Origin: Porphyromonadaceae bacterium
GTDB taxonomy: Bacteria > Bacteroidota > Bacteroidia > Bacteroidales > UBA12481
DNA: 35,541 bases
Reading direction: 5' to 3'
Assembly (NCBI GenBank): GCA_007280905.1
Contig: QYQM01000153.1
Coordinates: forward strand, 1 to 35,541
The notes beneath the pieces are model-generated. The model made no database searches. It had not been told where the DNA came from and saw nothing but the letters and a program-made list of their open reading frames with translations. The translations under genes were made by a program, and so were the position numbers. Positions 3,405-12,503 of the stretch are shown piece after piece (position 1 is the stretch's first letter; each line of letters opens with the position of its first letter).

Positions 3405-3971
3405 GTCAGTTGTGAAGAAAATATCGCAAGTACCGATGTTGAGAATAACAACAAGTTAAGGTCCTTAACTGCTGAAAACTTACCATCTCTAAATGATGAA
3501 AAAATTAAAGTGTTTAATTATAGGATTTCCAACAGGGAGAATCGATTAAAAGACGTTGCCCTTAATTGTGGGACACACAAGGATGACCATGTGGATAATG
3601 GTAACCAGAGAACCCATTATGAGTTGGACATTTATGAAATGGATCAATCAGGGACCATGGTCTATGCTCACTATTTGGTCAGACCATATAATAAAGTTCT
3701 CGGAATTTGGTATTGGTGTCAAAGGACCATTAGTGCAAATATTAAAGTCGCAAATGATTATTATATTTCACCAGTATGGGATCGAATAACCGAAACCTAT
3801 TATAATGCAGGTGAATTGGCCTATAGTCTGTCAGGAGATTTAGGCGTGAGATGGATTTCTGCGCCTAATTCTGTTCCCCATATTTTTCATTTCGGAGGTT
3901 ATTATGTTTGGGCTGATACTCCAAGTACTGACCAAATATCAGGCCAATGTAATGCGGGGTATTTTTGGTAG
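3405..3971 (+). pseudogene. Probable N-terminally truncated lipoprotein-like gene
   Basis: The annotatable part starts with GTG at 3510 and gives a 153-residue protein of unknown family. The same frame stays open back to 3405, where it encodes VSCEENIASTDVENNN directly after tandem stops TAG TAA. A Cys followed by acidic and Asn-rich residues resembles the start of a mature lipoprotein, so the original signal peptide may have been lost or put out of frame. The body is Trp/Tyr-rich (GIWYWCQRTIS, HFGGYYVWADTPS) and probably beta-structured. Three cysteines lie in the C-terminal two thirds. It sits between two divergent DUF4249 genes. If the GTG is genuinely used, the product would be a cytoplasmic 153-residue protein, which fits its composition less well. 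Confidence 0.45.
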
Positions 3972-4285
3972 AAGAGATTCAAAGGCTATTAAAATGCAGG
4001 AGTTGTTTTAGCCCCCTAAATTGTTGGACACAGAATTGAAAAGAGATAAGTTCAACTAAATTTTGGACCTCGACAACACAAAGAACATTTATTGATGAAG
4101 AATACTGGCTCTGCTTCAGGTAGCAGAGCCAGCATTTTTCAACCGGAAATGCAGCATTCCCAGAGCTGAATGATTTGCACCTACAATAGATCTTTGTATG
4201 TTTATATTAGATTTGACAATCTCCATCGAAGTGAGTTAATTGATTCCTTAGGTTGAAACATATAGTAACAAATTCTAAAAAACTT
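3972..4285. other. Intergenic gap with one hairpin
   Basis: The 314 bp between the truncated lipoprotein-like gene and the next lipoprotein gene hold no convincing reading frame. The only clear structure is the terminator-like hairpin at 4105-4139. A short TTGTTGGACACAGA near 4020 loosely resembles an insertion-sequence end but has no partner. Confidence 0.5.
4105..4139 (+). terminator. Rho-independent terminator hairpin
   Basis: A perfect 11-bp stem (ctggctctgct at 4105-4115 with agcagagccag at 4122-4132), a 6-nt loop and a T5 run at 4135-4139. It lies 130 bp after the previous gene and upstream of the lipoprotein-receptor operon, so it insulates the operon from read-through. Confidence 0.7.
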
Positions 4286-8955: not shown

Positions 8956-9729
8956 ATGTTCAAAGGAAAATCTGTCTTCATTCCCTGTAAACCTTACGTC
9001 AGGCAATTTCTCATTCAGCAGTTTTGTGAACCGGTCAACCTTTATCCGGCCGCCAATCCCTACCTGACATTCTTTCGCAGCTGTCTTACCGATCCAACCC
9101 CAAAATACCAACAGCGTTTACCCTGCAGCAATTGCGATATGTTGGTTAAACGGGAAAAGCAGGTACACGTGCCTAAAGCAAGATTTTACCAGCGCGAGCA
9201 TGAGAAAATGCGAGTAGTCAATAAGAGTAGAACCGATATCGTGGAATTTGTTGTTTCCGAAGCGGATTTTTATGAGGTTGGCTGGTTCATCAAGCCACTT
9301 CAGGTGGCAGCACTGAATGCCTGTTTCGAGCAAAACATCAAAGCGTTCATGAGGACCTCCATCATGGTGGATGTATCCGTTACCGGTAACCTGGCCGACA
9401 GCATCCACCGGTTTCAGAACAATTACAACTTCCCGGAGGAGATCTGGTCGTATGAGGCCATTAAAAAGGATTTATACCGGCACACCAAGAAATCAAAGAT
9501 TTCATTCAAAAAGGAAATTTATAGCAAAATCCAGCAAATAGTTATAGTTCACTTGTCTGATCTGGGGACAATCTCAAAAACCAACCAATTACTCAATGGA
9601 AAAATTAAGAAAAGAACAAAACAACCTGGGCGGAATCTCAAAACTTTGGGCGATCCCCTCCAACTTACTCTATACGCTAACCGGGAGCGAAACTCCGGGA
9701 ATGTTCTCGCTTCCGATCGGATGCCTTGA
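8956..9729 (+). CDS. Conserved-looking island protein of unknown function
   Basis: A 257-residue protein starting MFKGKSVFIPCKPYVRQFLI. I have an impression of similar proteins with the same opening in Bacteroidota mobile or prophage-like regions, but I cannot name a family. Visible traits: a charged, mostly helical sequence without signal peptide or membrane segment; NNYNFPEEIWSYEAIKKD in the second half; a Lys/Arg-rich tail. It overlaps the next gene by 134 bp in another frame. The last 45 residues look less protein-like, so a natural stop near 9600 may have been lost by mutation. The upstream promoter and its tight link to the next gene suggest both are expressed together. Confidence 0.5.
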   Translation: MFKGKSVFIPCKPYVRQFLIQQFCEPVNLYPAANPYLTFFRSCLTDPTPKYQQRLPCSNCDMLVKREKQVHVPKARFYQREHEKMRVVNKSRTDIVEFVVSEADFYEVGWFIKPLQVAALNACFEQNIKAFMRTSIMVDVSVTGNLADSIHRFQNNYNFPEEIWSYEAIKKDLYRHTKKSKISFKKEIYSKIQQIVIVHLSDLGTISKTNQLLNGKIKKRTKQPGRNLKTLGDPLQLTLYANRERNSGNVLASDRMP

Positions 9730-10048
9730 AAACGCCTTTGAATTCTGGCCCACCTTTCAATCTGCCGCCTTCGAGGAAGAACAGTTGGTACATGCTGCCG
9801 GTGATTATTACAATCAGACGGTTGTATTTACCGTTCCCAAACACACTTTCCGAAACCTTGCCTACCTGAACCTCCTCGCTGGCCGAACCTGGGGGATACT
9901 CTTCATGGATCAGAACAGACAATATATACTCGTAGGCAACCGGGATTATCCATTGCGCCTGGGAGCGGGTATTAAAACAGGAGGGGAAATCTCGGACCTG
10001 AACCACGCATCTTTAAAGTTCACTGGCCAGTCTCCTTTTCGGTTTTAA
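9596..10048 (+). CDS. Island protein of unknown function, second gene of pair
   Basis: A 150-residue protein with the N-terminal pattern MEKLRKEQNNLGGISKLWAI and a later AGDYYNQTVVFTVPK. I loosely recall similar small proteins from prophage-like clusters in Bacteroidota, possibly structural, but cannot confirm this. It is predicted to be soluble and beta-rich in its centre (RTWGILFMDQNRQYILVGN). It overlaps the end of the preceding gene by 134 bp. Its stop codon lies inside the first bases of the left 54-bp inverted repeat of the neighbouring element, so the element sits exactly at its 3' end, and the last residues may be supplied by the inserted DNA. Confidence 0.5.
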   Translation: MEKLRKEQNNLGGISKLWAIPSNLLYTLTGSETPGMFSLPIGCLENAFEFWPTFQSAAFEEEQLVHAAGDYYNQTVVFTVPKHTFRNLAYLNLLAGRTWGILFMDQNRQYILVGNRDYPLRLGAGIKTGGEISDLNHASLKFTGQSPFRF

Positions 10049-10096
10049 CAAGGGTCTAAACTGATACCACCCACCGGCGAAAAACGATACCACCTT
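10043..10096 (+). repeat. Left 54-bp terminal inverted repeat
   Basis: It matches the reverse complement of 10947-11000 with one mismatch (A at 10087 against C). It contains two copies of GATACCACC. Its first bases overlap the stop codon of the gene ending at 10048. Confidence 0.85.
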
Positions 10097-10145
10097 ATTA
10101 ATTTTAAAGAAATTGTAATTTTTCGCATCCCGAAAGATTACAGTC

Positions 10146-10481
10146 ATGATTTCAACCCTCACCTGTCAACATTGTGGCCTCACGATAGAAAGTAATCCCC
10201 GAATCAAAAAACAGAAATATTGCTCTTCCCGGGCATGTCAAAATGCTCGTCGATTTTCAACCCATAAGGTAAGAGTCAAGAAAAGCTCAGCGAGTCGTTC
10301 CATGCGATGTGCCCGCAATATGCGTTGGCGTTATACCCGCCCTGCATACGCGTATCAGAAGGACTACCGTGAGAACCACCCGGAGTATGTGAAGCGCAAT
10401 CGTGATTTACAAAGGGAGCGTAACGAAAAGCGTCAAAAGGAATCTGTATCAATGATTGTAAAGACGTACGCGTTCGTTTAA
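10146..10481 (+). CDS. Zinc-ribbon protein, left copy
   Basis: A 111-residue basic protein. Cysteines C7, C10, C26 and C31 in TCQHCG and KQKYCSSRACQ form a probable zinc-binding ribbon. NPRIKKQKYC is the family signature between them. A second part, RPAYAYQKDYRENHPEYVKR, is a basic helical repeat followed by an Arg-rich tail, which suggests nucleic-acid binding. Small proteins of this build accompany insertion sequences in Bacteroidota and other phyla; this is from memory. The right copy in this element has all four cysteines at the same positions and the same 32-residue distance between the CQ after the last cysteine and RPAY, but the middle section here has quite different residues. No transposase is linked. 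Confidence 0.6.
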   Translation: MISTLTCQHCGLTIESNPRIKKQKYCSSRACQNARRFSTHKVRVKKSSASRSMRCARNMRWRYTRPAYAYQKDYRENHPEYVKRNRDLQRERNEKRQKESVSMIVKTYAFV

Positions 10482-10497
10482 GAAAAACCGCCCCTCT

Positions 10498-10533
10498 ACA
10501 TTTACCGGCACTAATAAAAGTACCGGTAAATGT
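10498..10533. repeat. 11-bp perfect hairpin at the centre of the element
   Basis: acatttaccgg (10498-10508) pairs with ccggtaaatgt (10523-10533) around a 14-nt loop. Its centre lies about 6 bp from the exact midpoint of the 958-bp element and between the two convergent genes. It has no T-run, so it is a weak terminator candidate for both genes or a scar of the inverted arrangement. Confidence 0.6.
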
Positions 10534-10606
10534 AACCGGCTGAAAAAACCGGTGCAATCGCGTTCCTATTTACAATCTTTGGAGCGGGTGCTCTTGACTG
10601 GGATTT

Positions 10607-10897
10607 TTATCGCTTTGCCCTACGCTGACCCTGTAGCTCACGATTACGCGCTACATACCCGGGATGCCGCTCACGGTATTCCCTCTGGTATTGGTAGGCT
10701 GGTCGTTTCTTCCGCCACAGATCCTGATGATCCAGACATTTCTGGCGGTAGCTTGGGTTATCTGCATATCGTTCCCGCTTCCACAAGCTCACTCTCGATC
10801 GCTGGCATACCTTCTCTGTACAATACTGCTGCTCTTTTATTCGGGGATTCCGTGGTAGCTCTTTACCACAATGACGGCAAATAAAGGTGGTGATCAT
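10607..10897 (-). CDS. Zinc-ribbon protein, right copy
   Basis: A 96-residue homologue of the left zinc-ribbon protein in opposite orientation. C7, C10, C26 and C31 are conserved (ICRHCG, EQQYCTEKVCQ), as is NPRIKEQQYC. The RPAYQYQREYRERHPGYVAR motif and a basic tail follow. The middle (SLWKRERYADNPSYRQKCLD) looks like normal family sequence, so this copy appears the better preserved of the two. It stops about 15 residues earlier than the left copy. In the DNA just past the stop, GATTGTAAA and ACGCG in the inverted direction still match the 3' end of the left gene. Its ATG is 49 bp from the right inverted repeat, the same distance as in the left copy. Confidence 0.65.
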   Translation of the reverse strand: MITTFICRHCGKELPRNPRIKEQQYCTEKVCQRSRVSLWKRERYADNPSYRQKCLDHQDLWRKKRPAYQYQREYRERHPGYVARNRELQGQRRAKR

Positions 10898-10946
10898 GAT
10901 CGTAATCCTTCAAGATGCGAAAGATCACTGTTTAATCATAGGTAAA

Positions 10947-11000
10947 AAGGTGGTAGCGTTTTTCGCCGGTGGGTGGTATCAGTTTAGACCCTTGTTAAAA
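10947..11000 (-). repeat. Right 54-bp terminal inverted repeat
   Basis: Inverted partner of the left repeat at 53 of 54 positions. The IS3-type transposase fragment begins directly beyond it, so the element or a later rearrangement cut that gene. Confidence 0.85.
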
Positions 11001-11541
11001 GTTAAATACCTTGTTTCCGAATTTGAGTGCAGTGTCCGGCAGGCGGAACAATTGGTTGACTTATCCCCTGGCTTTTATAACTATCAGCCTCGAGAGAAGG
11101 ATGAGAACCTAATCAGCAAGCAGCTACTGCGAATTGCCGGATTGCACCCAGAATTTGGTTTTGAACGGCTGCATGAGATTCTTATGCTTGAAGGATTTGT
11201 AGATCGCAAAAACAGGTTTACCGGGCGTATAAAATACTTGATCTGAAAACGCGGAGGCGGAATTTCCTGCTGCAGATCAGGCTGGCAGCGAATCCCCGAT
11301 GGAAACCTCGGCGGCGTGGTCTGTCATGGGTTATACAAGAGGCTGTTACGTTCTCCAAGGAAAATAGGGTTATTCGGAATCCGGTTTTGGTCATCTACCG
11401 AAGTGCTGGTGGTGAAAAGCTTGCTGAAATTCCGAGAACCAGAAGCGCAGTAACGTTAATCAAGTCACTGGAATCCCTGTTTGGTGACAACGGTAAGCCT
11501 TACCGGATCCGGGTTTGGTGGGAACCAAACCAGTTTCGATG
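11001..11541 (+). pseudogene. Degraded IS3-family OrfB transposase
   Basis: Bases 11001-11246 encode KYLVSEFECSVRQAEQLVDL, then a stretch ending HPEFGFERLHEILMLEGF. This is the HTH_21 region that precedes the integrase core of IS3-family OrfB proteins. After a frameshift near 11220 the sequence continues as VYKILDLKTRRR, the expected next segment. The central catalytic part is missing or unrecognisable. Near the end (about 11490-11530) NGKPYRIRVWWEPNQF resembles the IS3 motif with GKP-x-x-IRVDNGPEF, with the catalytic Asp and neighbours replaced. No start codon or OrfA is present, and the 5' side abuts the right 54-bp repeat. The gene is dead. Confidence 0.6.
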
Positions 11542-11559
11542 ATTTATTTTAGGACATCT

Positions 11560-12157: not shown

Positions 12158-12430
12158 CTATTCAATATTCAGATGTTCACTGGCTACACTCAGAACATCA
12201 TTGCCGAACGCTTTCAGGTAGATCTCTGTGGTCTGTTCGTTGGCATGACCCATCATTTCTTTAATTACAGAAGCCGGAACTTCCTTGCTTTTCAGGGTTG
12301 AGGCAAATGTATGTCGTGCGACATAGGTTGTTAATGAGGTTAAAATTCCAAGGTGAACACCCATCTTATCCATAGAACCTGGCATCCTGTTCATTTGATA
12401 ATTCAGCAGGCTGGTAGTCTTGTATTTTTT
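12158..12430 (-). pseudogene. C-terminal fragment of a tyrosine recombinase (integrase)
   Basis: The frame encodes LTTYVARHTFASTLKSKEVP, then MMGHANEQTTEIYLKAFG. These are the last boxes of a phage-type integrase: Arg in ARH, the GH dipeptide, and the Tyr nucleophile in EIYLKAF. The TTYVARHTFAS form is typical of Bacteroidota integrases. The N-terminal arm-binding and core domains and the first catalytic Arg are absent. In this frame a stop lies near 12430, beside a run of seven A on this strand that may have caused a frameshift. The fragment ends 32 bp before a tRNA 3' half, the usual position of an integrase next to its attachment site. It is not expected to be active. Confidence 0.7.
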
Positions 12431-12461
12431 TCAAATCTGCCATGGTGATTGCCCGTTTTAC

Positions 12462-12503
12462 CTTACAAGCAGAGGGTCACTGGTTCGAATCCAGTAGCGC
12501 CCA
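12462..12503 (+). other. 3' half of tRNA-Val(UAC), probable attachment-site remnant
   Basis: The sequence starts in the anticodon loop (CTTACAA, anticodon TAC), then has the 3' side of the anticodon stem (GCAGA), a short variable loop, a perfect T-arm (actgg TTCGAAT ccagt, 12479-12495) and the acceptor 3' strand with discriminator A at 12503. No D-arm or 5' acceptor strand (expected gggcgct) precedes it. Integrative elements commonly recombine inside tRNA genes from the anticodon loop to the 3' end, and an integrase fragment is adjacent, so this is most simply one end (att) of an old insertion. The matching intact tRNA would be outside the window. Confidence 0.7.

Follow-up and report, generated by a model that had tools for sequence, protein, structure and literature searches.

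Insertion sequences of the IS21 family, as represented by the prototypes IS21 and IS5376, encode the two proteins IstA and IstB, and the ends of these prototypes contain repeats designated L1/L2 and R1/R2. Members of this family duplicate about 4-8 bp of target DNA. For IS5376, a published study gives a target duplication of 5 bp, and indicates that purified IstA can integrate isolated left ends in vitro, albeit about 2-fold less well (PMC10122671). For other systems, a second study indicates that Tn7 does not work with donors that have two left ends, and that a CRISPR transposon works poorly with them (PMC10201428). In the window, by which we mean the whole stretch of 35,541 nucleotides that was analysed, a locus is present that carries two such left ends facing each other, with neither istA nor istB between them. 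We consider it probable that this locus is a chimeric, head-to-head remnant of two four-gene IS21-family elements that were joined by a deletion.

Layout of the locus and its two flanks

The locus is a near-palindrome whose inverted arms meet at a central hairpin (Table 1). When aligned, the two left ends (LEs) are identical at 53 of 54 positions, and the spacers immediately inside them (10097-10145 and 10898-10946) agree at 33 of 49. The inverted arms of 180 nt are 76% complementary, and given a self-match E of 1.9e-31, the near-palindrome cannot be attributed to chance. The proteins encoded by the two zinc-ribbon (ZR) genes align without gaps (43 of 96 residues identical, E 2e-28), such that their four cysteines and an RPAY motif are in register. 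An earlier note on this sequence had reported the identities of ends and spacers, the equal layout of both sides with their shared Cys and RPAY motifs, and the lack of an internal transposase, and each of these observations was reproduced. According to the ORF list, the DNA between the ends holds ZR1, ZR2 and small overlapping ORFs, none of which was recognised as transposase-like (ZR1 and ZR2 were those included in family scans). The hairpin, the single iteron in each arm and the paired ACCACC repeats in each end go beyond the earlier description. The LE terminus of arm 1 is the same as that of a full element in a related genome (L036, described below), and the outer bases of both window ends correspond to the terminus fixed by the target duplication of that element.

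Table 1. Positions of the features that make up the near-palindromic locus and its flanks in the window.
Feature	Positions	Strand	Remarks
Left flank, two phage-type genes	8956..10042	+	second gene cut by left LE
LE of arm 1	10043..10096	+	TTTTAAC terminus, two ...ACCACC repeats 23 bp apart
ZR1, Cys4 zinc-ribbon gene, 111 aa	10146..10481	+	C-terminal part lost; corresponds to gene 1 of IS21-type element
Iteron of arm 1	10454..10474	+	core GACGTAC
Central hairpin, meeting point of the arms	10497..10534	.	palindrome arms 16 nt at 94%
Iteron of arm 2	10557..10577	-	core TAGGAAC
ZR2, Cys4 zinc-ribbon gene, 96 aa	10607..10897	-	second element lineage; C-terminal part lost
LE of arm 2	10947..11000	-	LE type, two ACCACC repeats 23 bp apart
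Right flank, 3' part of IS3 OrfB-like gene (presumed)	11001..11546	+	5' side cut by right LE; frameshifted

The ZR protein is a Cys4 zinc ribbon with two knuckles and predicted metal binding, given that C7, C10, C26 and C31 are invariant in all 13 aligned ZR proteins. No convincing family was found for the ZR proteins in scans of Pfam, NCBIfam and PHROGs, where Pfam gave three weak matches, each to one member (best E 0.0039). A search of solved structures with a ZR profile returned three matches (best E 0.15), and a two-sequence structure prediction (111 residues) reached a pLDDT of 81.8 but a pTM of 0.38, which is too weak for a fold search. All 20 conserved positions located outside the truncated tail are kept in both window ZR cores. 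Thus, the cores do not have the look of decay, a characteristic that counts against considering the locus to be a remnant.

The flanking sequences come from two unrelated loci. On the left, homology with contig C7 of genome G004 (83%) extends to base 10041 and homology with contig C89 of genome G000 (78%) extends to base 10042, and in these intact counterparts the interrupted gene runs 8 codons past the point where it is cut in the window. The next gene in G000:C89, which encodes a head maturation protease of phage type, is the source of the phage label of this flank; neither of the two genes in the window has a PHROG match. On the right, homology with G000:C42 (85%) and G006:C138 (84%) starts at base 11001, and both counterparts have a longer gene that includes the 5' part. 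We take this gene to be IS3 OrfB-like, and neither Pfam nor NCBIfam yielded a match for the piece present in the window. On each side, homology of the flank stops within 1 bp of the element boundary.

No target duplication is evident at the locus, where the flanks read CTTTTCGG and GTTAAATA. The earlier note had proposed a search for an empty site, and none was found: among 12 genomes of the family, 4 of which gave a match to the query, no case has the left flank next to the right one. Given that the flanks derive from two loci that are intact elsewhere, and that there is no target duplication, the two left ends appear to mark two separate insertions. Consequently, the DNA that once resided between them would have been lost or moved.

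Four-gene IS21-type relatives and their iterons

Full elements that carry both a transposase and the same ends, which the earlier note had suggested looking for, were found in related genomes, and these have the order LE, ZR, ParB-like, IstA, IstB and right end. Genes for ZR, a ParB-like protein, an IS21-type transposase and an IstB-type protein follow each other in G006 (three copies) and G005, and the same order recurs in G197, G135, G312, G1137 and G1121, the last of which is cut in istB by a contig end. For the G056 copy, the contig stops inside the transposase gene, and the G049 copy is missing the genes downstream of ZR. Family scans took in L036 plus the IstA and ParB proteins of L039, and other copies were assigned by ORF order and likeness. 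The clearest copy is L036 of G006, which spans 4165 bp from TTTTAAC to GTTATAA, is bounded by an 8-bp target duplication (GCAGTACT), and carries ACCACC repeats spaced 23 bp apart, with three in the LE and two in the right end. A 5-bp duplication, TGCAA, is present in L081, and none was seen for L080, L078 and L079 with ends as set there.

These elements resemble the IS21 family in their repeated ends, in the target duplications of 8 bp (L036) and 5 bp (L081), and in IstA and IstB proteins that score above curated cut-offs. Specifically, IstA matches the IS21 transposase model NF033546 with 213.4 bits (L036) and 212.6 bits (L039) against a cut-off of 160, and the IstB of L036 matches NF038214 with 215.5 bits (cut-off 200) and Pfam IstB_IS21 with an E of 1.8e-62. 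They differ from the two-gene prototype in that ZR and ParB-like genes are added upstream, resulting in four genes, and in that three iterons are present. Complete ZR proteins in these relatives have about 153-176 amino acids.

Gene 2 of the elements is reminiscent of centromere-binding proteins of the ParB, Noc and KorB type, in that its product has HTH_ParB or parB_part matches and its gene adjoins repeated DNA sites. The L036 protein scores 52.2 bits against Pfam HTH_ParB (cut-off 22.6), and the parB_part model (cut-off 58.45) is passed by the L039 protein (64.0) but missed by that of L036 (53.2). Scores of 76.0 and 80.6 bits for the L036 and L039 proteins against nucleoid_noc are far below the cut-off of 315. 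In contrast to the ParB, Noc and KorB systems, the iterons are direct rather than palindromic, the module resides inside a transposon, and none of the listed neighbours was recognised as a ParA gene.

Three direct iterons, each roughly of the form (G)ATTGTAAA followed by a 7-bp core, are present in all 12 elements that have a complete ZR 3' region (L036-L040, L078-L082, L117 and L118). The independent cases are fewer than 12, as L078 nearly duplicates L079, and L081, L082 and L117 resemble one another closely. The count of 12 leaves aside L041 (no downstream genes, one iteron), L084 (cut by a contig end, one iteron), the degenerate L120 (two iterons with at most 1 mismatch, in register), and the relatives from outside the order (L044-L047 and L119). 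Copies 2 and 3 are spaced exactly 80 bp apart in all 12 elements, and the spacing between copies 1 and 2 varies from 78 to 102 bp. Both L117 and L118 were obtained after this pattern was set, and both fit the 80-bp register. The register is absent from the relatives outside the order, where L044, L045, L046 and L119 show two iterons and L047 has a third iteron 71 bp on.

Copies 1 and 2 of the iteron are located inside the ZR gene, and copy 3 overlaps or follows its stop codon. Copy 3 is in another frame in eight of the ten elements compared. In L081 and L082 the reading frame of copy 2 differs from that of copy 1, which argues that the constraint acts on DNA. Among nine non-duplicate elements, the 8-bp iteron cores are identical within every element and average 63% identity between elements (permutation p 5e-5, computed without correction for relatedness, with certain related elements having a core in common). 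Compared without gaps, the 59-bp stretch that separates copy 2 from copy 3 is on average 38% identical from one element to another (24-85%). Regulation of the element is the most likely role of the ZR and ParB-like proteins, which would exert it through the iterons.

A fourth, solitary iteron is located upstream of ZR in L082 (8527-8547, between LE and ZR) and in L117 (121-141). Its cores, GACGTAC in L082 and TACGGAC in L117, are unlike those of the three other copies of the same element, and GACGTAC is also the core of window arm 1.

We judged this family to be of greater importance than the window locus, as it is a candidate case of a transposon that uses a partition-type DNA-binding module. 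No description of IS21 elements that have a ParB-like gene and three such repeats was found in the open-access papers searched. It is conceivable, but distinctly doubtful, that the parents form an undescribed IS21 branch with partition-like control, wherein ZR and ParB-like proteins would read three phased iterons for synapsis, copy number or target choice, and that the window locus is a stripped, trans-mobilised satellite with two left ends that retains an LE, a ZR core and a single iteron in each arm, the two arms belonging to different specificity groups.

Origin of the paired left halves

Each window arm can be matched to the LE, the ZR core, one iteron and the segment up to the hairpin of L036, with the ZR tail and iterons 1 and 2 absent. 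The 35 bp that follow the iteron are informative regarding the source of each arm. In arm 2 this segment matches L036, an element of a congener, at 34 of 35 positions, and in arm 1 it matches L118, an element of another family (G1121), at 28 of 35, whereas the two arms agree with each other at only 17 of 35. Thus, the arms stem from different element lineages. In a ZR tree of 14 rows, both fall within one subgroup, in which they form the longest branches (0.89 and 0.82) and are not resolved, the latter counting against the proposed chimeric origin.

A palindrome could alternatively form by fold-back duplication, wherein a single left half was doubled perfectly at the hairpin, after which the arms diverged and the ends stayed alike. 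The symmetry about the hairpin and the long, unresolved branches of both arms within one subgroup are compatible with such an origin. However, the flanks from two loci, the missing target duplication and the lineage-specific matches of the post-iteron segments make it so improbable that we rejected this candidate, with the post-iteron segments being decisive.

The meeting point of the arms has a counterpart at the predicted start of the ParB-like gene, as identified by folding in L036 and L082 and by sequence in L117 and L118. Among nine folded full elements, the hairpin is degenerate in L080 and L081, and no sequence counterpart is present in five (L037-L040 and L078), which speaks against the history preferred here. 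We propose that two elements belonging to separate lineages of one subgroup would have inserted in opposite orientations, the first within a phage-type gene and the other within the presumed IS3-like gene. A deletion could then have joined both copies at the palindromic hairpin, a short feature that some of these elements have where the ParB-like gene begins. Since the sequence of a palindrome is unchanged by inversion, two inverted copies still share homology in direct orientation there. Such a deletion would have taken both halves that contain ParB, IstA, IstB and the right end, along with all DNA between them, to leave the product LE-ZR1-iteron-hairpin-iteron-ZR2-LE. If so, the locus may record a deletion between inverted transposon copies by way of a short native palindrome. 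The missing right halves of the two parents were not found; the source genome is a draft of 185 contigs. Moreover, the reduction is parallel, as iterons 1 and 2 are gone from both arms and one iteron plus the ZR core is left in each, which counts against a chance remnant.

The ends call for additional explanation. In an ungapped comparison of eight LEs across a shared set of 52 columns (with neither the LE of C108 nor the incomplete one of L082 among the eight), the window pair is identical at 51 of 52 positions and the other 27 pairs at 32-48 of 52, where the lowest values involve the lone LE of G006:C240 and understate identity due to a 1-bp gap. In a gapped alignment that includes L082, 14 other pairs span 0.71 to 0.90. 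Even L081 and L082, which share 75 of 96 positions in ZR, agree at 35 of 41 in the LE, the L082 LE being cut by a contig end. Because the window ends exceed what two different elements should show, a second event must be assumed. The ends are more alike than common descent within the element family predicts, and they were probably homogenised after the fusion, the route being either gene conversion or a template switch from one inverted end to the other. In this respect, the proposal of the earlier note that the ends are kept alike or were homogenised holds.

The similarity of the ends, the equal length of the arms and the intact ZR cores would also be expected of a true non-autonomous element with two left ends that is mobilised in trans by an IS21 transposase. 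Such an element would have landed as a unit and later experienced an adjacent deletion, driven by the transposase from one of the ends, that took away the opposite side of the target together with the duplication. Given that the IstA protein of IS5376 uses isolated left ends, the fused unit might indeed remain movable in trans. Nevertheless, we regard this history as unlikely, since it requires more events than one deletion, there is no target duplication, no second copy was found among the genomes searched, and no matching IstA was found in the source assembly, where three partial matches have 26-30% identity (although a draft may lack repeats).

ZR matches were obtained in 5 of 60 relatives, 3 of 12 genomes of the family, 8 of 393 of the order, 1 of 395 of the class and 2 of 395 of the phylum, where these overlapping sets all include the source genome (the only match in the class) and scoring for order, class and phylum was limited to nine first-look candidates per genome. 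The family of G312 gave matches in 4 of 28 genomes, the source genome not being among them. ZR matches come from 13 distinct genomes, of which the source genome alone has a convergent ZR pair, although the lack of a second pair in the genomes searched is weak evidence given that drafts lose repeats. The match in G302 has no ParB- or IstAB-like ORF listed alongside. A viral collection gave no matches to the LE pattern and no relatives in scans with ZR and IstA proteins, and a scan of genome contigs gave one weak relative (L009). A plasmid search with ZR returned four records, of which three have gene annotation and two of these a recombinase-family gene; with the ZR of L036, three of the same records were returned.

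Searches with the ends and ZR genes, as the earlier note had advised, uncovered the parent family of the single left halves and no second pair. The new class of non-autonomous element with paired cargo that it had envisaged is disfavoured by this result, by the flanks from two loci and by the absence of a target duplication, and the locus is most likely a chance remnant. That note had named a unique head-to-head remnant as the finding that would speak against its own idea, and this is largely what we observe, with the near-identical ends still in need of explanation. Its alternative, in which two left ends of a single IS were fused, is correct as regards the fusion of left ends, but the sources are four-gene IS21-type elements of two lineages. 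A MITE-like non-autonomous element is likewise disfavoured, as there is no target duplication, and neither a contiguous empty site nor a second copy was found in the genomes searched (drafts can lose repeats).

The join could have been created during assembly, if two contigs ending in left halves were misjoined through short repeated ends or the hairpin. The draft state of the genome, the flanks from unrelated loci and a further contig, C108, that also ends exactly at an LE fit such an error. Yet the longest exact repeat common to both ends is 44 bp, the palindrome arms are short and imperfect (Table 1), and the arms differ throughout, hence no long overlap is available. Assemblers usually use final k-mers longer than 44 bp. 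We consider a misassembly very unlikely, and retain the joining of two elements by deletion as our preferred reading.

Neighbouring and distant relatives

Downstream of the locus, positions 12460-12500 contain what we take to be the 3' part of a tRNA-like gene (GGTCACTGGTTCGAATCCAGT), beside remnants at 12158-12394 (minus strand) that are presumably of a tyrosine integrase. ARAGORN reported no whole tRNA in the window, and thus a decayed prophage or integrative element may have left one of its attachment sites in the form of the tRNA-like piece.

In contig C108 of G000 (L008), 821 bp at 3431-4251 are bounded by one right and one left end of the parent-element family. This stretch has no ORF recognisable as ZR, ParB, IstA or IstB, it cuts a transposase gene that we presume to be IS630-like, and the contig ends exactly at the LE terminus. 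Lone ends with no partner in the scanned stretches were observed in G000 at C39 (L072, 1992), C19 (L073, 15614) and C180 (L075, 3344), and in G006 at C240 (L076, 12685). Lone left or right ends suggest frequent rearrangement of these elements in the genus.

More distant relatives reside on plasmids. In Desulforapulum pHRM2a (L047, 5980-10200), genes for ZR, a ParB/KorB-like protein, an HTH protein and IstB are followed by a CHC2 zinc-finger gene, which is the same operon order as in the parents but in another phylum. The IstB of this plasmid passes the Pfam cut-off, its IstA-like gene has weak matches, and its ParB-like protein is just below the KorB cut-off. Elements of Methylibium RPME01 and Variovorax RA8 plasmid 2 resemble the parents in having a related ZR gene with two GATTGCAAAG-type repeats in its 3' part, where no third repeat was found. 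Unlike the parents, they have two ParB-like genes and a recombinase-family protein in place of IstA and IstB. On betaproteobacterial plasmids, ZR is followed by recombinase-family and two ParB-like genes at L045 (5986-9945), L046 (6001-9857) and L044 (5833-9928), the order in L044 being taken from ORFs alone as the record has no annotation. The L045 recombinase is of the serine type by matches below cut-off, and the 3' part of ZR in all three plasmids contains repeats of the type noted above.
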